Shown piece after piece: positions 8,961 through 61,294 of a stretch of 64,000 nucleotides of DNA. A program made the translations under genes and the position numbers. The stretch comes from Marinihelvus fidelis. GTDB lineage: Bacteria > Pseudomonadota > Gammaproteobacteria > Xanthomonadales > SZUA-36. Below the pieces are notes generated by a model. It was not told the origin of the DNA and made no database searches. It was given only the letters and a program-made list of their open reading frames with translations. The stretch is from contig NZ_VYXP01000005.1 in the NCBI RefSeq assembly GCF_008725655.1, positions 270,209 through 334,208 on the forward strand, in the 5' to 3' direction. The number at the start of each line of letters is the position of its first letter. The first letter of the stretch is position 1.

Positions 8961-9054
8961 CGCCCTTTAGTTCTACCGCTCTCCGCGACCCCTTCAGAGC
9001 CAGAAGGGTTATTGATTCCGGAGAATAACGGTTTTGTCACACTCGCGCATCCCC

Positions 9055-9261
9055 GTAACGCGTGACGCGTGACGCGTGACAGAAAACATTCCAGGGTTTG
9101 GGGGTGGTGTAGTGCCTGTGCGGACCTTCGGCGGCATGGATGCCGCCGATGAGCGATCCATGGACGGACTTGAGCGAGTCCGCACAGGCGCTACGCCACC
9201 CCCAAACCCCTGCGACATGCTCCCCCGCGTCACGCGTTACGCGTCACCCGTTACCTGTTAC
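9055..9261. repeat. Composite hairpin element, copy 1, flanked by heptamer arrays on both sides
   Basis: This fills most of the 440-bp space between the divergent GltD-like gene and rhlE. Arms at 9092-9125 and 9178-9212 are inverted repeats of 34/35 nt with one gap and two positions that would be U-G pairs in plus-strand RNA. They enclose exactly 52 nt (9126-9177), which is the reverse complement of the core found at 37377-37428 and 43988-44039. That core holds the hairpin CGGCGGCA-tgga-TGCCGCCG. The heptamer GTGACGC is repeated at 9055-9080, and degenerate GCGTCAC/GCGTTAC units lie at 9226-9261. The sequence between 9262 and 9400 holds nothing I can name beyond the likely rhlE leader. Confidence 0.8.
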
Positions 9262-21705: not shown

Positions 21706-22782
21706 GTGCTGATTCAACGACTTAAAATCGATAACCTCAGGGTTATCGAGCAATCAGACACAACGCCGGGTACAGGTCTTAATCTATTTACGGGCCACAA
21801 TGGCGCCGGCAAAACCACGTTGTTGGAGGCCCTGGCCATCCTGGCCAGGGGCCGTAGCTTCCGTTCCGGCTCAGTGAGCGCCCAGATCGGCGGAGTCACA
21901 GACCACTACACGCTTTTGGTCGATATCGAACGCGCTTCAGGGCAGACGCATCGGCTTGGATTGTCACGAAGTCGTTCTGGCTGGAAAGCCCGTTGTGATG
22001 GGCGCGACATCACGCAGTTGACCGAATTGTCGGCCTTGCTACCCGTTATTTCGATGCATCCGGAGAATTACTCCCTGGTGAGTGGCCCGCCCGAAGGACG
22101 GCGACGCTATCTCGATTGGGGCGTGTTTCACGTGAAACATGGGTTTCTCGACGACTGGCGTCGGTATTCCAGGGCGTTGTCCCAACGCAACGCGGCGATT
22201 CGCCAGGGTGCCAGCGCTGCCGTAGTCGATAGCCTGACGCCGGAACTGGTGTCGCATGGAAACAGGCTGGATGAAGTACGAAGGGATGAAACAGAACGCC
22301 TGTCGCAGCGGTTGAAGATGATTCTTCCGGAACTCAGCGGTACGTTGGGTGAAATCGAGATTGCCTATCATCCAGGATGGTCCGCCACAGATTTCGAGTC
22401 GGCGCTCGTTGATGCGCTGCAGACTGACCGCGAGCGTGGCTGGACTTCGGTTGGCCCACATCGCGCAGAGTTGGTGTTCCGCACGGATGGCCGTCTTGCG
22501 CGGGATCGCCTCTCCAGGGGTGAACAGAAACTACTGTATGTGGCTCTGAATATCGCCCAGGCCGGACGATTGGCGGAAACCGGTGAGATACCGGTGATGC
22601 TGATCGACGACCTGGCTTCAGAGTTTGACGAAGATCATCTCGATCGCGTGCTGGACTATTGCCTTGCGATGGGCGGCCAGCTTTGGGTTACGGGCACATC
22701 GACCCAGGGTTTCTCGGAGCAGCGGCTGGAAAAAGCCAGCGTGTTTCACGTGAAACACGGGGTGGTCAGCGCGGCGACATAG
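21706..22782 (+). CDS. recF: DNA replication and repair protein RecF
   Basis: RecF loads RecA at gaps with RecO and RecR. The 358-residue ABC-type ATPase starts at a GTG (MLIQRLKIDNLRVIE). GHNGAGKTTLLEA is Walker A, LSRGEQKLLYVALNIAQ is the signature, and VMLIDDLASEFD is Walker B. The conserved block LDWGVFHVKHGFLDDW is where the first parS site sits. The C-terminal tail carries a second VFHVKH, encoded by another parS. A third site follows the stop by six bases. Confidence 0.95.
   Translation: MLIQRLKIDNLRVIEQSDTTPGTGLNLFTGHNGAGKTTLLEALAILARGRSFRSGSVSAQIGGVTDHYTLLVDIERASGQTHRLGLSRSRSGWKARCDGRDITQLTELSALLPVISMHPENYSLVSGPPEGRRRYLDWGVFHVKHGFLDDWRRYSRALSQRNAAIRQGASAAVVDSLTPELVSHGNRLDEVRRDETERLSQRLKMILPELSGTLGEIEIAYHPGWSATDFESALVDALQTDRERGWTSVGPHRAELVFRTDGRLARDRLSRGEQKLLYVALNIAQAGRLAETGEIPVMLIDDLASEFDEDHLDRVLDYCLAMGGQLWVTGTSTQGFSEQRLEKASVFHVKHGVVSAAT
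22124..22139. other. parS centromere site 1, inside recF
   Basis: TGTTTCACGTGAAACA is the perfect 16-bp palindromic parS consensus bound by chromosomal ParB. It is read in recF as codons for VFHVKH, in a region where RecF proteins naturally have Phe-His-Val. Confidence 0.92.
22742..22757. other. parS centromere site 2, near the recF 3' end
   Basis: A second perfect TGTTTCACGTGAAACA. It encodes a second VFHVKH, nine residues before the end of RecF, where the family has no conserved need for that peptide. Confidence 0.92.
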
Positions 22783-22788
22783 CGGCGG

Positions 22789-22804
22789 TGTTTCACGTGA
22801 AACA
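22789..22804. other. parS centromere site 3, recF-gyrB intergenic
   Basis: A third perfect TGTTTCACGTGAAACA, six bases after the recF stop and 31 bp after site 2. Sites 2 and 3 form a close pair, suited to ParB nucleation about 2.3 kb from the likely origin. Confidence 0.92.
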
Positions 22805-22860
22805 CCGCCTTTGAAAACCAACGAAGACGGTTGTAAATCAACCCTTTGGACCCAATTGAG

Positions 22861-37351: not shown

Positions 37352-37526
37352 GGGAGGCTTTTACCAATCCCCGGACACGCTGTGAATACATCCCTGTACG
37401 CTCATCGGCGGCATCCCTGCCGCCGATGGTCCGGGGCTTGGCAAAAGCCCCCCACTCCGGAACGCTCTTCGCGTCACGCGTCACGCGTCACGCGTCACGC
37501 GTCACGCGTCACGCGTCACGCGTCAC
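37352..37526. repeat. Composite hairpin element, copy 2, with heptamer array
   Basis: The arms at 37352-37376 and 37429-37453 are 25-nt inverted repeats with three mismatches; two of these would be U-G pairs in minus-strand RNA. They enclose a 52-nt core (37377-37428) with the hairpins TACA-tccc-TGTA and CGGCGGCA-tccc-TGCCGCCG. An array of about eight GCGTCAC units occupies 37471-37526 and ends at the TAG of the LOG gene, read as TAGTGA on the minus strand. It fills the 189-bp gap after the permease gene. Confidence 0.85.
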
Positions 37527-38107
37527 TACGTCTCGTCCTGGGTGATCCATTTGCGGATTTGCGGGGCGCGGTAGGTGGCGAAGCGGTCCAATAGGCGGAC
37601 GGGGTCTTCTTCCAGGGTGAGGATGTCGCGGTAGACCGGGCGGACGAATTCTTCGTCGATGGCGTGATCGAGGAAGCGGAACAGGCCGTCGTAGTAGCCG
37701 GCGACGTTGAGCAGGCCGCAGGGCTTGTCGTGGAAGCCCAGCTGGGCCCAGGTCAGGATTTCGAAGATTTCCTCGATGGTGCCCCAGCCGCCGGGCAGCG
37801 CCACGAAACCGTCGGAGACGTCCGCCATCATCGCCTTGCGCTCGTGCATGGACTCGACCACGTGCTGCTCGGTGAGCGCCGGGTGGGCCACTTCCTTGAT
37901 AAACAGTGCGCGCGGGATGATGCCAATGGCCTCGCCGCCGGCGGCCAGTACCGTGTCAGCGATGGCGCCCATGACGCCCACGCTGGCGCCGCCGTAGACC
38001 AGGCCGATGCCGCGTTCCACCAGGGTCTCGCCCAGCTGGCGGGCGGCGTCGATGTAAGCCGGGTCGCGGCCCGGGCTGGAGCCGCAGTAGACGCAGATTC
38101 GCTTCAT
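37526..38107 (-). CDS. LOG-family protein (TIGR00730), nucleoside-monophosphate phosphoribohydrolase type
   Basis: The 193-residue protein starts MKRICVYCGSSPG and carries GLVYGGASVGVMGAIAD, SMHERKAMM and LPGGWGTIEEIFE, the LOG signature with the PGGxGTxxE active-site motif. Family members cleave nucleoside 5'-monophosphates (in plants, cytokinin ribotides) to the base and ribose phosphate. The frame is open further upstream, but this Met is the family start. The stop abuts the heptamer array. Confidence 0.88.
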   Translation of the reverse strand: MKRICVYCGSSPGRDPAYIDAARQLGETLVERGIGLVYGGASVGVMGAIADTVLAAGGEAIGIIPRALFIKEVAHPALTEQHVVESMHERKAMMADVSDGFVALPGGWGTIEEIFEILTWAQLGFHDKPCGLLNVAGYYDGLFRFLDHAIDEEFVRPVYRDILTLEEDPVRLLDRFATYRAPQIRKWITQDET

Positions 38108-38135
38108 TGGGTCATTCCCTGCATGTCGACGGGAC

Positions 38136-39485
38136 CTAGAGTCCGCGCGCGCGGACGACGGCCAGCATCTGGTCCAGCCGTTCGCGATCAAGCCACTGTC
38201 CTGCGCGGGCCACACCCAGGACGTTGGCGACCTGGCCGACGTCGTCCAGCGGGTTGCCGCCCAGCAGGACCAGGTCGGCGCGCTCTCCGACGGCGACATC
38301 GCCGCTGTCCGGCTGGCCCAGGTGGTCGGCCACGGCGCCGGTGCCGGAGAACAGTGCGGCACGCGGGCTGATGCCGGCGTCGACCATGTAAACCAGTTCC
38401 TGGGCCACCGAATAGCCCGGCACGTTCATGATTTGCGGCGCATCCGAGCCCAGCAGGATCACCACCCCGGCCCGCTCCATGGCCGCCAGCAAAGCCCGGC
38501 GTGCGGCCAGGAAGGCTTCGCGGTCGGCCTGGTCGGCGCGGCCGCGGATATCGGTGACCGAGCCGGTCCAGCGCGCCAGCAGTTCCGGGCTGAGCATGTC
38601 CATGCCCGTGCGGGCCGTCAGTGCATCCGGCGGTTCGGTGCCGGTAGTCGTTTCGAACAGGCTCTGCGTGGGCACCACGGCGACACCCGCGCGCGCCGTG
38701 CGTTCGGCCAGTTCATCGGCCAGGGACGGGTCCATCGCCGCGCCCAGGTTCAGGCCGAACCATTCCGGGGCCACGCCGGCCAGTGGAGAGCCCTCGGGCA
38801 CCATGGCCTCGGCGTAGGCGTCCAGGTGGTCGATGCTGTCCATGCCGGCGTCGAGCGCCGCGTCCAGGCCGGTGGCGTAGGACACGTGGCCGGCCACGGG
38901 GATGTCGACCTCGTCGGCGGCCGCCATGATGGCCAGGAACTCTTCGCGGCTGAGCCCGGGGTGGATCTTCAGCAGGTCGTAGCCGGCTGCGGCCTGCTCG
39001 CGCACCATCGCCGCGCCCTGTTCGGGTGAGCTGACGCTGTTGCCGTTGAACGACGGCCCGCTGGTGACGAGGGTGGGGCCCAGGCGCTCGCCGCTGGCCA
39101 ACTGCTCGCGCAGCTCCAGGTGCCAGGGCTGGCCGAGCATGCCGCGGATGGTGGTCACGCCGTTGGCCAGGAACAGGGACAGTACGTCGTTGACATGGTC
39201 GTCGCCGCGCTCGCGCGGTGGCACATGCGCGTGCATCTCGGCCAGGCCGGGAATCAACCAGCCCCCCTGCCCGTCGACGACCCGGGCACCGCCGGCATCA
39301 AACTCACCCGCCGGCACGATCGCGGCAATCCGCTCGCCGGTCACCCGCACCGCCTGCCCGGTGACGACTTCACCGCTACGCGGGTCGACAACATTAACCG
39401 GCGCCAGCCACCAACTCTCCGCGGCCCCCGCTCCCGGAAAGCCCAGCACCACCAATACCAGCAACACACTTAGCCGAACCGTCAT
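38136..39485 (-). CDS. Secreted amidohydrolase (imidazolonepropionase-like)
   Basis: The 449-residue protein has a signal peptide (MTVRLSVLLVLVVLGFPGAGA) and the amidohydrolase fold. GLAEMHAHVPP holds the first metal His pair (HAH), HVSYATGLDAA and DSIDHLDAY give further metal-side His residues, and LLGSDAPQ has the catalytic Asp. The end (GDVAVGERADLVLLGGNPLDDV) is the C-terminal beta domain. It is probably a periplasmic hydrolase of a cyclic amide or peptide; the substrate is unknown. GGAGGAG lies just upstream of the ATG, immediately after the heptamer array. Confidence 0.82.
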   Translation of the reverse strand: MTVRLSVLLVLVVLGFPGAGAAESWWLAPVNVVDPRSGEVVTGQAVRVTGERIAAIVPAGEFDAGGARVVDGQGGWLIPGLAEMHAHVPPRERGDDHVNDVLSLFLANGVTTIRGMLGQPWHLELREQLASGERLGPTLVTSGPSFNGNSVSSPEQGAAMVREQAAAGYDLLKIHPGLSREEFLAIMAAADEVDIPVAGHVSYATGLDAALDAGMDSIDHLDAYAEAMVPEGSPLAGVAPEWFGLNLGAAMDPSLADELAERTARAGVAVVPTQSLFETTTGTEPPDALTARTGMDMLSPELLARWTGSVTDIRGRADQADREAFLAARRALLAAMERAGVVILLGSDAPQIMNVPGYSVAQELVYMVDAGISPRAALFSGTGAVADHLGQPDSGDVAVGERADLVLLGGNPLDDVGQVANVLGVARAGQWLDRERLDQMLAVVRARGL

Positions 39486-39494
39486 AAGCTCCTC

Positions 39495-39535
39495 CCGTCA
39501 CGCGTCACGCGTCACGCGTCACGCGTCACCCGTCA
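39495..39535. repeat. Heptamer array without hairpin
   Basis: Five to six GCGTCAC units, the last degenerate (ACCCGTCACT), lie between two co-directional genes. On the minus strand it supplies the TGA that ends the DUF2333 gene. No inverted-repeat core accompanies it, so the array can exist alone. Confidence 0.8.
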
Positions 39536-40524
39536 CTGAGCAGGAAACGCAGGTCGATAATTGCCGCGTTCGCGCGGGCCACGTAATTCGCCATCACCAG
39601 TGAGTGATTGGCCAGCGCGCCGAACTTGCTGCCGTTCAGCACCATCGGCGAGCGCAGCGGCGCCTGGGTGGCTTCCAGCTCGCGGATGATCTGGCGGAAG
39701 CTGACCAGCGCGTTTTTCTTGCGCAGCACGTCTTCGAAGTCGTGCTCCATGGCTTTGAGGAAATGAATCAGCGCCCAGGTCGAGCCGCGTGTCTCATAGA
39801 AGACATCGTCAATCTCGAGCCAGGGCGTCTTCACGGTCACCTCTTCCGGCGCGCCGGTGGACTGGCGCGCGCCGGTGTCGCCGGCCAGGTCGGTGTTCAG
39901 GCGGTGCTGGCCGGTGCTGGCCGACAGGCGCTGAGACAGCGAGCCCAGGCGTTTTTCGACAATGGCCAGCCAGTCGGCCAGGTTGTCGGCGCGGGCATAG
40001 AACTGTGCGTCGGGCTGGGACGGGTCGGCCAGGCGCTCCAGGTACGCCTCCAGGTAGGCATTGGCCTTGCGGTAGCGGCCCTCGGTCGCCGGTGGGAACC
40101 AGCGCGCGTGGTCGTAATGCAGCATCGGGTCGGCTTCGGCCAGGTCCGGGTCCTCGGTGGACTGGGTCTGCGAGCGGCTCAGGTCGTTGCGCATCACCCG
40201 CGCCAGGTCACGCACCTGGGTCAGGGCGCCGAACTCCCAGTTGGGCATGTTATCCAGGAACACCCACGGCGGCATGATGTCGTTCGACATCCAGCCGCCA
40301 CGCTTGGTCAGCATGACGTTGACCACTTCGACCAGGGTGGCGGTCGTCGCAAAACCGGTGACCGGCTGGTGGCCGTGTGTCTCGGCGTGGCGGCGGGCGG
40401 TGTCGAGCGGGTCGAACGCGGGTGGCTCTTCGTTGTACCACCACATGCCGAACAGGGTGACGAGGATGGCAATCCCGATAATGACCAGCGTGGTGAGCTG
40501 GGTCCGGCGACTGGGCATGTGCAT
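39526..40524 (-). CDS. DUF2333-family membrane-anchored protein
   Basis: The 332-residue protein has one N-terminal helix (LTTLVIIGIAILVTLFGMWW) and a large soluble domain with GGWMSNDIMPPWVFLDNMPN, WEFGALTQVRDLARVMRND and SRSQTQSTEDPDLAEADP, the DUF2333 signature. Its function is unknown in the family. The last residues (LLSDG) and stop are written in the first heptamer of the array, so the array may have trimmed or replaced the original end. Confidence 0.8.
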   Translation of the reverse strand: MHMPSRRTQLTTLVIIGIAILVTLFGMWWYNEEPPAFDPLDTARRHAETHGHQPVTGFATTATLVEVVNVMLTKRGGWMSNDIMPPWVFLDNMPNWEFGALTQVRDLARVMRNDLSRSQTQSTEDPDLAEADPMLHYDHARWFPPATEGRYRKANAYLEAYLERLADPSQPDAQFYARADNLADWLAIVEKRLGSLSQRLSASTGQHRLNTDLAGDTGARQSTGAPEEVTVKTPWLEIDDVFYETRGSTWALIHFLKAMEHDFEDVLRKKNALVSFRQIIRELEATQAPLRSPMVLNGSKFGALANHSLVMANYVARANAAIIDLRFLLSDG

Positions 40525-40579
40525 TGAGGGGGCTCCGCGGTTGAGCGATCAGCGCGCCAACCTTATCAGATTCGGTGGC

Positions 40580-41197
40580 TCACGCACCCGTGCCGGAGGG
40601 CACCAGGCCGTCACGCAACCATGCGCCGACGACCACGTCCATGCCGGCGTCCGGGCCGATAATGGCGGCCGTGCCCGAGCGCAGCGCGACGATGTCGGCC
40701 GTAACTTCATCAAAGGCGAGTTGCCGTGGTGCCTCGACGACCATTTCCGGGATCACGATAACGGTGACCGGCCCGGTGTCGGTCTGCACGACCATGTGCG
40801 CGCCGCGGCCCTTCGGCGTGGGGCAGAACTTCACCAGGGTCACCCGACTGGCCAGCTCCGCCGAGGCCTCCAGGTTGAACCGGCCGAGGACGTCCGCCAG
40901 TGCCCGCGGGTCGACGCCAGCGTCGCCGGCACGGGCGAGCACGGTGGCGCCGTCATGACGGTAGTGGGCCAGGATGTACTCCTCCAGCGACGGCGCGGGC
41001 CGGCTGGCCTGCCAGGCGATGACCCCGACAGACAGCATGACCAGCACGCTGGCGGCGATGGCCCAGCCACGCCGGGCCGGCGGCGCCTGGCCGGCCGTGT
41101 CGGCGGGCGGCAGCAGGCTGTCCACCAGGGTGTCATCCACCGGCAGCTTCAGTGCGGCTTCCAGCCGTTGCTCAAATTGATCCATTGCCTTCACCAT
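40580..41197 (-). CDS. DUF3379-family protein, probable anti-sigma partner of the ECF sigma factor
   Basis: The 205-residue protein has one membrane helix (WAIAASVLVMLSVGVIAW, residues about 45-62) between a short cytoplasmic head and a periplasmic domain (PSLEEYILAHYRHDGATVL, LVKFCPTPKGRGAHMVVQT), as in DUF3379. It overlaps the ECF sigma gene by 14 bp if MDQFEQRLE (41185) is the start, or by 26 bp if the ATG at 41197 is used. Its position after the sigma gene is that of an anti-sigma factor; no classical zinc motif is visible. Confidence 0.75.
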   Translation of the reverse strand: MVKAMDQFEQRLEAALKLPVDDTLVDSLLPPADTAGQAPPARRGWAIAASVLVMLSVGVIAWQASRPAPSLEEYILAHYRHDGATVLARAGDAGVDPRALADVLGRFNLEASAELASRVTLVKFCPTPKGRGAHMVVQTDTGPVTVIVIPEMVVEAPRQLAFDEVTADIVALRSGTAAIIGPDAGMDVVVGAWLRDGLVPSGTGA

Positions 41198-41690
41198 CTT
41201 CTTCCAGCCGGTCGGCCAGCAATCCGCGGGCCCGGAACAGGCGGGTCATTACCGCGCTGCGGCTGATCTCCAGCTCGGTCGCGATCTCCTCGCAACTCAT
41301 GCCGATGACGACCTGCATCACCAACGGTTCGCGGTAGTTTGCCGGCAGCGCGAGTATCCGCTGGCGCAGTTGCTGTCGCTCCACGCGCTCCTGCGGCGTG
41401 GCGGCGTCCCGGTCCTCTATCACCAGCGCATCGATACTCACCAGCGGCGGTACCTTGCGCTCAAACGTCCGGGCGTACTCGCGCCGCAGGATCGTGATCA
41501 GCCATGACTTTGCCGCCGCTTCATCCTTCAGGCTGTCCACGGCTCGCCATGCGCGCAGGAAGGTTTCCTGCACCAGGTCACGGGCCAGCGTCTCGTCGCG
41601 GCACAACCAGACCGCGAAACGGTACAGGTCGGCGCCATGCTGACGAGCCAGCCGATCGAAGTCCGCGCGTTTACGGGCCACCCTTCTCAT
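41172..41690 (-). CDS. ECF-family RNA polymerase sigma factor
   Basis: The 172-residue sigma factor begins MRRVARKRADFDRL (41690). Region 2 shows LYRFAVWLCRDETLARDLVQETFLRAWRA, and region 4 shows ALPANYREPLVMQVVIGMSCEEIATELEISRSAVMTRLFRARGLL. There is no C-terminal extension. The frame is open upstream through the leader, but no better start is seen there. The 229-bp space before it, up to the divergent PCMT gene, shows no gene. I found no clear self-recognised -35 there. Confidence 0.88.
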   Translation of the reverse strand: MRRVARKRADFDRLARQHGADLYRFAVWLCRDETLARDLVQETFLRAWRAVDSLKDEAAAKSWLITILRREYARTFERKVPPLVSIDALVIEDRDAATPQERVERQQLRQRILALPANYREPLVMQVVIGMSCEEIATELEISRSAVMTRLFRARGLLADRLEEDGEGNGSI

Positions 41691-41919
41691 GACCGGTATT
41701 ATCGCCGTTTGATTGCAAAACACAGCCCCGGAAGGGGAAAATAGGCGATTCCGGTAACTTTTCCCGCCCACCGGGCGTCCAATAGCTAACGCGTGACCTA
41801 TGGCACTTCAGCCAGGGTGGGCAGGGCTTCATTCTCGTCCTTGCCGAGCCCCGGTGGAGGTCGTAACCTAAACGGTTGCCCCGGCCAGACGGGGTTGGCC
41901 ACAGGAGTGATGGTGAATC

Positions 41920-42579
41920 ATGACCATGAATTTTGAACAGGCCCGCCATAACATGGTGGAGCAACAGGTACGGACCTGGGAAGTGCTCGACGCCGAAGTG
42001 TTGGGCCTGCTGGGCGATATCCGTCGCGAGGATTTCGTCCCCGTCCGCTACCGCAAACTGGCGTTTGCCGACCTGAACATCCCGCTGGGGCACGACCAGG
42101 TCATGATGAAGCCCATCGTCGAAGGCCGCCTGTTGCAGGCCGCCGAGATCGGCGCCGACGACACGGTGCTGGAAATCGGTACCGGCAGCGGTTTCGTCAC
42201 CGCCTGCCTGGCCCGCCTGGCCAAGTCCGTGGTCAGCGTCGACATCATCGAGGAGTTCACCCAGGGTGCCGGCCGCCGGTTGGCGGAAAACGGTATCGAC
42301 AACGTGGAACTGTTCACCGGTGATGCACTCCAAGGCTGGCAACCCGAGCAGGCCCACGACGTGGTCGTGGTCACCGGTTCCGTTCCCGAAGTGCCGGAGC
42401 ACTTCCGCGGCTGGGTCAACCCCGGCGGCCGGATGTTCGTCATCTCCGGTGAGTCGCCCGCCATGGAGGCGCGCGTGTTGCGCCGGCTGGGCGCGACTGA
42501 ATGGGCCGAGGAAAGCCTTTTCGAAACCGATTTACCGCCGCTGGTCGGCGCAGAAACCAAGCCCGAATTCGAATTCTGA
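41920..42579 (+). CDS. Protein-L-isoaspartate O-methyltransferase-like protein
   Basis: The 219-residue SAM-dependent methyltransferase starts MTMNFEQARHNMVEQQVRTW and carries VLEIGTGSGFVTACLARLA, the PCMT SAM-binding motif. The substrate block reads GHDQVMMKPIVEGRLLQAAE, where true Pcm has an isoaspartate-binding Thr/Ile-Ser pattern, so this is the paralogue commonly found before tolC rather than the repair enzyme itself. tolC follows 17 bp later. Confidence 0.82.
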   Translation: MTMNFEQARHNMVEQQVRTWEVLDAEVLGLLGDIRREDFVPVRYRKLAFADLNIPLGHDQVMMKPIVEGRLLQAAEIGADDTVLEIGTGSGFVTACLARLAKSVVSVDIIEEFTQGAGRRLAENGIDNVELFTGDALQGWQPEQAHDVVVVTGSVPEVPEHFRGWVNPGGRMFVISGESPAMEARVLRRLGATEWAEESLFETDLPPLVGAETKPEFEF

Positions 42580-42596
42580 AGCACCTGGAGTCAGAC

Positions 42597-43946
42597 ATGC
42601 CGAAATCCCTACTCACCTGCGCCATCGTGGCCGCGGGTTTCACCCTCGCCGCCCCGGCGCACGCGGTTGACCTGATCGGCGTGCATGACCTGGCCATGGA
42701 AAACGATCCCATCCTGCAGGCCGCCAGCTACCGCCGCGATGCGACCGGAGAGAACGAGCGCCAGGCCTGGGCCAACCTGCTGCCCAACCTGGGCGGTTCC
42801 GCCGGAATGACCCGCGGTGACAGCGAAACCTCCATCGCCGGCGATCGCGTGTCCGACACCGACGTCGACAACGAGAGCTGGGGACTGAGCCTGCAGCAGG
42901 TACTGTACGACCAGTCCAACTACGAGCGCCTGGACCTGGCGCGCGGCCAGGTGAGCCAGTCCGAGGCCATTTACCAGCAGGCCTACCAGAACTTCCTGGT
43001 GCGGGTCTCGCAATCCTACTTCAGCGTGCTCACGGCCAGCGACCAGGTGGTCTTTGCCGAGGCCGAGGAACGCGCGCTGCAGCGCCAGTTCGAGCAGGCC
43101 GAACAGCGCTTCGAAGTGGGCCTGACGGCCATTACCGATGTGCATGAATCCCGTGCCAGCTACGATAACGCCCGCGCCCGCGCCATCGTCGCCCGCAACC
43201 GCCTGGCGGACGCGCGTGAAGGCCTGCGAGAGCTCACCGGGCAGTACTTCGAGGAAGTCGACCCGCTGCAGGAAGAACTGCCGCTGGTGAATCCGGACCC
43301 GAACAGCTCCGAGGAATGGGCGCAGATCGCACTGCAGTCCAATCCGTCGATCATCGCCTCGCAGTACGGTGTTGAAATCGCCGATGCCAATGCCCGCCTG
43401 CAGCGGTCAGGGCACTTCCCGACCCTGGGCCTGGAAGCCGGCTACAGCAACTTCACCAACAACAACTACGTGCTGTTTGATGATTTCCAGAACCCGATCG
43501 GCAACGTTGACCTGGAAAACACCGATTTCACCTATGGCCTGCGCCTGACGGTGCCCATCTACCAGGGCGGCGCGGTCAGCTCGCGGACCCGCCAGGCACG
43601 TTACGAACTGAACGCCACCCAGGAAGACCTGGACCAGCAGCAGCGCGCGGTGCTGCGTGACACGCGTAACGCGTATCGCGCCGTGATCGCCGGCATCGAG
43701 CAGGTGCAGGCGTTCAACCAGGCGCTGGTGTCGGCGCAGAGCGCGCTGGAAGCCACCCAGGCCGGTTTCGAAGTGGGTACGCGTACCATCGTCGATGTGC
43801 TGCTCGCGCAGCAGCGCTACTACGGCGCCCAGGGTGACAACTCGCTGGCGCGCCATGACTACATCCTCAGTCACCTGCAGCTGAAGGCGGCGGGGGGCAT
43901 GCTCTCTCGCGAGGACCTGGCGGCGGTTAACACGATCCTCGACTGA
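42597..43946 (+). CDS. tolC: TolC-family outer-membrane efflux channel
   Basis: TolC is the outer-membrane exit duct for type I secretion and multidrug efflux. The 449-residue protein starts MPKSLLTCAIVAAGFTLAAP with cleavage after AHA. Two repeated halves are visible: LANLLPNLGGSAGMTRG to NRLADAREGLRELTG, and HFPTLGLEAGYSNFTNNNY to VEVGTRTIVDVLLAQQR, with the typical GxxGxRTIxDVLxAQ. YQGGAVSSRTRQARYEL is conserved in the second half. An upstream GGAG supports this ATG. The composite hairpin element begins 13 bp after its stop. Confidence 0.92.
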   Translation: MPKSLLTCAIVAAGFTLAAPAHAVDLIGVHDLAMENDPILQAASYRRDATGENERQAWANLLPNLGGSAGMTRGDSETSIAGDRVSDTDVDNESWGLSLQQVLYDQSNYERLDLARGQVSQSEAIYQQAYQNFLVRVSQSYFSVLTASDQVVFAEAEERALQRQFEQAEQRFEVGLTAITDVHESRASYDNARARAIVARNRLADAREGLRELTGQYFEEVDPLQEELPLVNPDPNSSEEWAQIALQSNPSIIASQYGVEIADANARLQRSGHFPTLGLEAGYSNFTNNNYVLFDDFQNPIGNVDLENTDFTYGLRLTVPIYQGGAVSSRTRQARYELNATQEDLDQQQRAVLRDTRNAYRAVIAGIEQVQAFNQALVSAQSALEATQAGFEVGTRTIVDVLLAQQRYYGAQGDNSLARHDYILSHLQLKAAGGMLSREDLAAVNTILD

Positions 43947-43958
43947 GGCGTCAAAGCG

Positions 43959-44123
43959 GGACCGGGGTGGTTACGTCAACCCCGGACTCGCTCAAGTACA
44001 TCCCTGTATCGCTCATCGGCGGCATCCTTGCCGCCGAAGGTCCGGGGTTGACGTAACCACCCCGGTCCGTGACGCTCATTCGCGTCACGCGTCACGCGTC
44101 ACGCGTCACGCGTCACGCGTCAC
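43959..44123. repeat. Composite hairpin element, copy 3, with heptamer array
   Basis: The arms at 43959-43987 and 44040-44068 are perfect 29-nt inverted repeats. They enclose a 52-nt core (43988-44039) almost identical to copies 1 and 2, although the arm sequences outside CCCCGGAC are unrelated. Six GCGTCAC units at 44081-44123 follow. On the minus strand they encode the last residues of WaaA (VTRDA) and its TGA. The element lies between convergent tolC and waaA and could terminate both. Confidence 0.88.
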
Positions 44124-56592: not shown

Positions 56593-58155
56593 ATGAGCGA
56601 GCAAAGACAGCGGCTGGACTCCTGGAAGGCGATTGCCCGTCACCTGGGCTGCAGCGTCCGCACCGCCCGCCGCTGGGAAGACGAGGAAGGCCTTCCCGTG
56701 CACCGGCAGATGCACCGGGTGCAGGCCAGCGTCTATGCCTATGCTGATGAACTGGATGCCTGGCGCACGCGCCACGAGTCGCGGCCGCCGTCACCCCGCA
56801 CCACGCCGAGCCGACAGAATGCTTCGCTGGCTGTCATGCCGTTCGCATTCCTGGGCGCAGACACGGCGTCCGACTACATCGCCGACGGGCTGACAGACGA
56901 GCTTATCGCCCGCCTTTCCCACATCCGGGCCCTGCGGGTGATCTGCCGGACCTCGTCGATGGCGCTCAAGGGCACCGAGCTGTCGGCCAGGGACGTAGCC
57001 CGTCGGCTGGGGGTGACCCACCTGTTGGAAGGCACGGTGCGACTGGCGGGTGAGCGGCTGCGGATCAGTGCGCAGCTGGTGGAGCCCGGCAGCGAGGTCG
57101 CGGCCTGGTCGGCGCAATTTGATGGACTGCTGGACGATGTTTTCGACCTGCAGGAGCGCATCGCCCGGCACATCGCGGACACGCTCGCACCGCGACTCAC
57201 GCCGCGTGAGGACCAGATGCTGTCGCGCAACCCCGCCAACGACGTGGACGCCTGGCAGTGTGTGCAGCAGTCGCGCCAGTCGGCATTGCGTTGGCGGCAG
57301 GACGCGATCGACGACGCCATCGCCCAGCTGGAAACCGCCGTTGATCGACTCGGGCAACGCCCGGTGCTACTGGCCGCACTGGGCCGGACCTGGCTGCAGT
57401 ATCGAGAAGCGGGCCTGGATCTGGGCGAGGCGCCGCTCATCGCGGCACGTGAATGCGTCGACCACCTGGCGCGACTGGGCGATACGAGCCCCGCGACCCT
57501 GCTGCTGCGCGGCTGGGTGGCCTATCACGATGGCCGCGTGACCGATGCAATCGGCGAGCTGGAGCGCTCGATGGAAGGCAACCCCAACGACCCCGACACC
57601 CTGGGCCTGCTGGCCAACTGCCTGCTGATCTCCGGCCGGGTCGATGCCGCGCGCCCCATCATTGATCACCTGTTGTCCATTGACCCGCTGACTCCGCTGA
57701 GCCAGTGCCTGCCCGGTTGGGCGGCGGTCCTGGAGGGTGACGTCGCGGATGGCCTCGACCCGTACCGCATCATGTACGAGATGGATCCGGGTAATCCGCT
57801 GGGACGGTTGTTCTATGTCTGGGCGCTGGCGCTGAATGGCCGGGACGAAGAAGCCAGGGAGATCGCCGCAGGGTTTCCGCAGTCGCAGCAGCGCCACCCG
57901 GCCGCCGGTATCGGCGTGATGTTCGGGCAGGTGCTGGCGGGCCAGCCGCCGGCGGAGCCGCCACCGGAAGTCCTGCAGGCTGCCGGCGCCACGGAAATGT
58001 TCAGCCGCATCCTGGCCGAAGTCTACGCGCTGGCCGGCGACCATGGCGCGGCCCGGCGCTGGCTGGACGTGGCAAAAGCCCGGGGGTTCAGCAACCGTGC
58101 CTACCTGGGGTCCAGGAAAGCTCTAGGGTCAGAGCAGGGTCGTGGTTTACTCTGA
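56593..58155 (+). CDS. HTH-TolB-like-TPR protein, probably truncated at the C-terminus
   Basis: The 520-residue protein has an N-terminal MerR/excisionase-like helix-turn-helix (LDSWKAIARHLGCSVRTARRWEDEEGLPVHR), a TolB/FlgO-like domain (SLAVMPFAFLGADTASDYIA; SAQLVEPGSEVAAWSAQFDG) and TPR repeats (LGRTWLQYREAG, LLRGWVAYHDGRVTDAIGEL, DPDTLGLLANCLLISGRVDA). Relatives usually continue with about 25 more residues after the GF.N..YL motif. Here the end SRKALGSEQGRGLL is encoded by a palindromic GGGTCAGAG region, so the true end seems replaced. It probably regulates or senses something, but the target is unknown. Confidence 0.7.
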   Translation: MSEQRQRLDSWKAIARHLGCSVRTARRWEDEEGLPVHRQMHRVQASVYAYADELDAWRTRHESRPPSPRTTPSRQNASLAVMPFAFLGADTASDYIADGLTDELIARLSHIRALRVICRTSSMALKGTELSARDVARRLGVTHLLEGTVRLAGERLRISAQLVEPGSEVAAWSAQFDGLLDDVFDLQERIARHIADTLAPRLTPREDQMLSRNPANDVDAWQCVQQSRQSALRWRQDAIDDAIAQLETAVDRLGQRPVLLAALGRTWLQYREAGLDLGEAPLIAARECVDHLARLGDTSPATLLLRGWVAYHDGRVTDAIGELERSMEGNPNDPDTLGLLANCLLISGRVDAARPIIDHLLSIDPLTPLSQCLPGWAAVLEGDVADGLDPYRIMYEMDPGNPLGRLFYVWALALNGRDEEAREIAAGFPQSQQRHPAAGIGVMFGQVLAGQPPAEPPPEVLQAAGATEMFSRILAEVYALAGDHGAARRWLDVAKARGFSNRAYLGSRKALGSEQGRGLL

Positions 58156-58180
58156 GTCGACTCTGACCCGACTCTGACCC
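58126..58180. repeat. GGGTCAGAG / CTCTGACCC inverted repeat
   Basis: GGGTCAGAG (58126-58134) faces CTCTGACCC at 58161-58169 and again at 58172-58180. It covers the end of the HTH-TolB gene and the 36-bp gap before the next gene. It resembles an interspersed palindromic element, but no other copy was seen in this window. Confidence 0.5.
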
Positions 58181-61244: not shown

Positions 61245-61278
61245 CCGGGTCATACTGGCTTGAGTTGGTATGACCCGG
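61245..61278. promoter_or_regulatory. Candidate mazEF operator
   Basis: CCGGGTCATAC and GTATGACCCGG are perfect 11-bp inverted repeats with a 12-bp spacer, ending 17 bp before the mazE ATG. This is the usual place for MazE/MazEF autorepression. Confidence 0.65.
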
Positions 61279-61294
61279 GTATTACCCTGTGCGA

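Follow-up and report, generated by a model that had tools for sequence, protein, structure and literature searches.

Tandem repeats with a seven-base unit follow the last codons of many genes in Marinihelvus fidelis, and in a sister species the sites and the period (7 or 8) persist while the unit is exchanged. The unit reads GTGACGC on one strand and GCGTCAC on the other. The arrays were met in a stretch of 64,000 nucleotides (assembly GCF_008725655.1, contig NZ_VYXP01000005.1, positions 270,209 to 334,208; called the window below), where they stand at the ends of genes for a LOG-family protein, a DUF2333 protein and WaaA. The genome-wide pattern is real and of a known kind, the less expected feature being conserved sites with exchanged units. 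On balance, the arrays are probably tolerated repeats, driven by slippage and hairpins, that lie just past the last essential codon; a selected role as an all-frame stop is not established. Between the two congeners, site, direction, period and hairpin geometry are kept and the unit is not, a distinction that makes the question of why bacteria carry heptamer repeats testable by strain comparison. The arrays of the window, with the stops and palindromes beside them, are as follows.

9055 to 9080, minus strand: left arm array of GTAACGC and GTGACGC units in a spacer between divergent genes
9094 to 9209: palindrome between the arrays at 9055 and 9227, arms of 32 nt, 94% complementary, apex reversed
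9227 to 9254, plus strand: right arm array of GCGTCAC, GCGTTAC and CCGTTAC units
37352 to 37453: imperfect palindrome with conserved apex, left of the LOG array; arms at about 37352 to 37376 and 37429 to 37453, recognized by eye and absent from the 25 listed pairs
37471 to 37526, plus strand: (GCGTCAC)8, with GTGACGC on the coding strand of the LOG-family gene (minus strand)
37526 to 37528, minus strand: LOG stop TAG, the gene's own, abutting the array
39495 to 39536, plus strand: six units (CCGTCAC, four GCGTCAC, CCGTCAC) between the DUF2333 stop and the next co-directional gene
39526 to 39528, minus strand: DUF2333 stop TGA, within the second array unit read from the gene
43959 to 44068: palindrome with conserved apex, left of the WaaA array; arms of 29 nt, 100% complementary
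44082 to 44123, plus strand: (GCGTCAC)6 at the end of WaaA (minus strand)
44106 to 44108, minus strand: WaaA stop TGA in the third unit, the last residues VTRDA being array-coded

The original prediction, made from this window, described the heptamer as a cassette with stops in all frames at three gene ends, and its description of the window was borne out. The arrays at the gene ends hold 8, 6 and 6 units (8.1, 5.9 and 6.1 tandem copies over 37470-37526, 39496-39536 and 44081-44123), and a two-unit motif with at most one mismatch has 21 matches in the window against 0.14 expected from 100 shuffles. GTGACGC holds TGA, a period of 7 shifts the frame from unit to unit, and the GCGTCAC strand has no stop. 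The stop-bearing strand is the coding strand in all three genes, and the array supplies the stop itself in DUF2333 (unit 2) and in WaaA (unit 3), while the LOG TAG shares only its final base with the first base of its array. The DUF2333 ending SDG* also occurs in the congener protein, whose array is (GTAAGCA)n, so this ending is not peculiar to the array of M. fidelis. A fourth site, which the prediction did not cite, is the inverted array pair at 9054-9254 between divergent genes, which is not a gene end; where arrays form the arms of inverted repeats, agreement of orientation in three out of three cases within one window is weak evidence. An Rfam scan of the window gave no match at gathering score. 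At 39485-39536 the DUF2333 array adjoins a GGAGG-like Shine-Dalgarno stretch and the start codon (ATG) of the following gene, whose translation could thus depend on array length.

Placement at gene 3' ends holds across the genome (3.43 Mb in 17 contigs). The exact two-unit motif occurs 171 times (89 on the plus and 82 on the minus strand; control 0). Genes were called with our own codon-usage caller, a non-standard predictor, and the catalogue was built from GCGTCAC and SCGTTAC searches, with the places of the two-unit motif limited to 100, so other families (GTGAGTR, GTGACGG) are under-sampled. A tally of 21 against 12, set aside because its filter for composites missed back-to-back arrays (L060, L061 and L096), includes composites, as does one of 28 against 14. 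The 108 arrays sorted comprise 52 between convergent genes, 42 between co-directional genes, 5 between divergent genes, 4 inside genes and 5 at edges. Read along the stop-bearing strand, 64 of them have a stop codon within -22 to 15 bp at the 5' side and 14 have one at the opposite side; 4 arrays have both. In loci that were selected for carrying arrays, arrays stand at 64 of 411 gene 3' ends compared with 8 of 423 5' ends, and, outside the locus centre, at 21 of 298 3' ends. In 36 of the 108, array and stop codon overlap, with the stop in unit 1, 2 or 3 in 16, 14 and 5 arrays, respectively, and one further array having a single base in common with it. Outward growth of every array from a native stop was rejected, given that the stop may sit in any of these three units. 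Overlap is seen only in the stop-bearing orientation because the other orientation cannot allow it.

De novo detection in 505.6 kb of chosen loci gave 75 period-7 arrays outside genes and 5 inside, with three arrays of period 14 and one of period 11 outside genes. All four intragenic arrays of the catalogue are read in the stop-free direction, as are four of the five found de novo; the fifth (L054:3967-4002) is short and mixed, and its gene reads the stop-bearing strand with no stop in frame. At L080:5272-5327 and L115:4015-4042, stop-free-direction arrays lie within an orthologous gene in both species, and the flanks read as a histidine-rich repeat region.

Evidence for exchange of the unit comes from the sister species (G001 in our set of 61 genomes). 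From 63 gene ends, 34 were taken for ortholog comparison (array overlapping the stop by more than one base, WaaA excluded); 4 had no match, one weak match (the L091 gene) was set aside and 29 were read by eye in G001. A coding-strand array stands at 24 of these 29 ends, one has a short array in the opposite orientation (L057) and four have none (L077, L080, L084 and L119). The rate at non-focal gene ends is 10 of 150 (Fisher p 3e-17), a figure drawn from two of three sets, the third giving 0 of 3. At the 24 shared ends the G001 unit is wholly different in 21, mixed in one and of the GTGACG type in two. Arrays of the two species begin at the same position behind the last conserved residue. Where the stop lies in unit 2 or 3, the array-coded tails differ from G001 in 13 of 16 cases (for example, HPP|VTRDA* in M. 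fidelis and HPPVPTRPEFG* in G001), SDG or GDG endings being common to three; where it lies in unit 1, the last residue is identical in 8 of 13, which implies that the first unit coincides with the native stop. The original prediction had proposed comparing protein ends with relatives that lack the array: most tails do differ in the unit-2 and unit-3 cases, but many G001 ends carry an array of their own, differently spelled. The G001 WaaA, with 77% identity, has the ending WLPR*, after which (GAATCGGG)n runs up to the contig end; in the four other congeners the WaaA end has no array. Several contigs terminate in or beside arrays (the start of C2, the end of C3 and both ends of C4 in G001; the end of C3 in M. 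fidelis), which indicates that arrays break assemblies and that copy numbers may be unreliable.

The families differ in how widely they are distributed among the 61 genomes. Exact three-unit GCGTCAC arrays occur in one genome and GTRACNN arrays, for which controls gave few matches, in four (M. fidelis, G001 and two members of the family). GTRAGYR arrays give 53 matches in M. fidelis and 198 in G001 (controls 3 and 14) and occur in no other genome, another genome having 25 control matches. GGGAATC arrays occur in four genomes, with 65 matches in G001 and none in M. fidelis. G001 also carries a stop-free octamer, GGGAATCG, with an upstream gene 3' end at 15 of 23 arrays; at these 15 the stop falls at 4 modulo 8 in 13 and at 3 in 2, a register in which the first unit holds the stop although the repeat itself is stop-free. 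A second family in M. fidelis, GTGAGTR (L189-L198), is often arranged as two inverted arrays flanking a terminator-like hairpin that has runs of A and of T.

Under the interpretation that we favour, the heptamers are dispersed tandem repeats of period 7 (7 or 8 in the congener) that fill the space behind the last essential codon, many of them forming the inverted outer arms of hairpins made by shared-apex palindromes or terminator-like structures. The position at gene 3' ends, the inverted pairing and the retention of sites with a changed unit are observed, and the hairpin folding is predicted. Slippage would add and remove units, and copying from arm to arm and from one array to another would homogenise them. 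An array growing into a reading frame would survive only if it brought or kept a stop, and stop supply would then be a tolerated consequence of array persistence rather than its cause. In favour of this reading are the excess of arrays at 3' over 5' gene ends, the G001 arrays (mostly of another unit) at orthologous ends, the large hairpins with heptamers at the base, the stop-free octamer that is anchored at stops and oriented like the rest between convergent genes, the equal retention of unit stops near and far from gene ends, the near-even co-directional orientation over all distances, and the precedents in Xanthomonas and Beggiatoaceae. Several observations weigh against it. Among arrays with a single gene 3' end within -25 to 40 bp, 42 of 49 in M. 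fidelis and all 33 in G001 have the stop-bearing strand as the coding strand (locus sets of the congener overlap, and orientation was recounted on 63 de-duplicated arrays). Where the stop is clear of the array, the figures are 12 of 17 and 13 of 13. The bias near 3' ends thus exceeds what survival of open reading frames alone predicts, and no array was found in the opposite orientation reading through a gene end. Hairpin geometry accounts for convergent pairs, not for every single array; all families but one share a G followed by a stop; and the copying between arrays is something that we infer and have not seen. The favoured interpretation accounts neither for the exceptionless orientation in G001 near gene ends nor for the common G-plus-stop core. 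P-values for orientation and unit counts are descriptive, paired arms and homogenised units being non-independent.

A function in hairpins or termination is rather unlikely: arrays might be useful outer stems of bidirectional terminators or of hairpins at mRNA ends, with their orientation following from the inverted repeat. Array layouts include inverted pairs around shared-apex palindromes or terminator-like hairpins, back-to-back arrays and single arrays, and orientation is partly fixed by arrays being arms of large hairpins. For 9054-9254 the predicted fold is a single hairpin whose base is formed by the heptamers (-140.3 kcal/mol, z -13.7), and 43947-44123, where the array has no left partner, has a predicted fold with z -14.9. 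A 17-mer from the apex occurs 18 times in M. fidelis, 14 times in G001 and nowhere in the remaining 59 of the 61 genomes, and an array lies within 190 bp of the apex in 14 of 17 copies tested in M. fidelis and in 7 of 7 in G001. The exceptions are one copy at the edge of locus L198, with an array just beyond (L099:27-40), and two at L199 without an array. The palindromic element as a whole combines a conserved apex with arms that are specific to each locus yet complementary to each other; in G001 the palindrome at the 9054 locus has other arms, which still pair at 30 of 31 positions, and its apex is reversed. In convergent spacers, 37 of 41 arrays in M. fidelis and 25 of 27 in G001 read from the nearer gene, and the stop-free family, GGGAATCG, does so in 5 of 5. 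Against a hairpin function, many arrays are single or stand beside a separate terminator, and co-directional single arrays such as that of DUF2333 (39495-39536) have no partner. Palindromes of the repetitive extragenic palindrome (REP) and bacterial interspersed mosaic element (BIME) type, and bidirectional terminators, are inverted repeats present in many copies in 3' intergenic space; the elements described here resemble REP/BIME as multi-copy inverted repeats 3' of genes and differ in having a tandem heptamer array as the hairpin base.

Selection for all-frame stops, with arrays kept for ending read-through or frameshifted translation, is improbable. The 36 arrays that contain a stop, the orientation near 3' ends (42:7 and 33:0, or 12:5 and 13:0 clear of the stop) and the composition of nearly all families as G, TGA or TAA and 3-4 nt all speak for it, as do co-directional arrays that come within 7 bp of a stop without overlapping it, with 13 in the coding orientation compared with two clean non-coding cases (L055 and L059) and one composite (L088). 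These ratios reject the absence of any orientation bias. Over all 42 co-directional arrays, however, 23 carry the stop-bearing sequence on the coding strand and 19 on the non-coding strand, and the de novo split is 15:16 in M. fidelis and 11:6 in G001; the non-coding arrays are mostly distant from the stop, as expected of the distal arm of an inverted pair. Stop-free co-directional arrays of G001 have GGGAATC on the coding strand in 1 of 6. The core of the unit is GTNAC: among 209 internal units, positions 1, 2, 4 and 5 (G, T, A and C) are invariant, and deviations from the commonest base number 30, 10 and 41 at positions 3, 6 and 7. GTAGC is absent and the stop-free GTTAC is present three times; a stop role would permit GTAGC and leave bases 1 and 5 free, which argues against such a role. 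Of 180 units in arrays adjoining a stop, 170 keep a stop in register, and of 57 units elsewhere 55 do (units being non-independent), so the better retention beside gene ends expected of fail-safe stops was not seen. Other families nearly all contain GTGA or GTAA, the exception being GGGAATCG, a stop-free family that nevertheless stands at gene ends. Ho and Hurst (PMC6764699) report finding no evidence of selected fail-safe stops in eubacteria. The original prediction had judged orientation and placement to look selected or to reflect targeted insertion at stop codons, and had counted random orientation or distance from stops against itself. Part of what it counted against itself was found, since arrays occur in either orientation and also at a distance from stops. 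The 3'-end placement and the strong orientation bias near 3' ends stand; selection for stops is unsupported or unnecessary in view of the near-even co-directional split, the distant units that keep their stop and the stop-free octamer.

Two further mechanisms concern how arrays reach gene ends. Template-directed copying, by a hairpin or otherwise, might put down period-7 or period-8 units of G, stop and 3-4 nt in the register of the stop and swap families across many loci while site, direction and period are kept; gene ends of the clade would then carry a rewritable, stop-anchored repeat, a reading to which we give low probability. Targeted insertion of a mobile element bounded by arrays, at or just after stops, is very unlikely: the common start of arrays in both species and the 8 of 13 unit-1 cases with the G001 last residue are consistent with it, but the common sites look ancestral and arrays also occur away from stops and inside genes.

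Repeats of this kind have been described in other bacteria. Rehm et al. (2015; PMC4692102) describe GGGAATC heptamers in Xanthomonas that are dispersed, mostly intergenic and rare between divergent open reading frames, that lie near stops on the coding strand, including overlaps, with some inverted pairs, and that recur at identical gene pairs of two species although their sequence varies; no function was found. These heptamers are stop-free and G-quadruplex-capable, and co-directional strand use is about even (30% vs 35% in Xcc). The period-7 arrays of M. fidelis are similar in lying mostly outside genes (75 vs 5) and near stops on the coding strand (42:7), with 5 of 108 between divergent genes; they differ in that their unit is not of the GGGNATC or G-quadruplex type (the dominant form, GTRACGS, lacks a GGG run) and in that several families exchange at conserved sites. 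MacGregor (2015; PMC4679880) reports a TAACTGA heptamer in marine Beggiatoaceae with all-frame stops in one direction; forward copies can overlap only the ends of open reading frames and reverse copies lie inside them, which is what the original prediction noted for the window, now in another genome, and most copies are upstream of start codons. The M. fidelis unit likewise has all-frame stops on one strand and none on the other, and its intragenic arrays are mostly in the stop-free direction, but, compared with TAACTGA as described there, its arrays are rare at gene 5' ends (8 of 423). No report of the units of M. fidelis, or of unit exchange at conserved gene ends, was found in the open-licence papers searched.

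Other repeats were observed in the window. Repeats of 11 bp ending TGACCCG, in part inverted, occur at 58126-58180 and 61267-61287, and a palindromic run resembling them lies 3' of the stop in the G001 ortholog of the L077 gene. Two identical perfect 18-bp palindromes, GTGTTTCACGTGAAACAC, lie 29 nt apart at 22741-22758 and 22788-22805; they may resemble parS partition sites.

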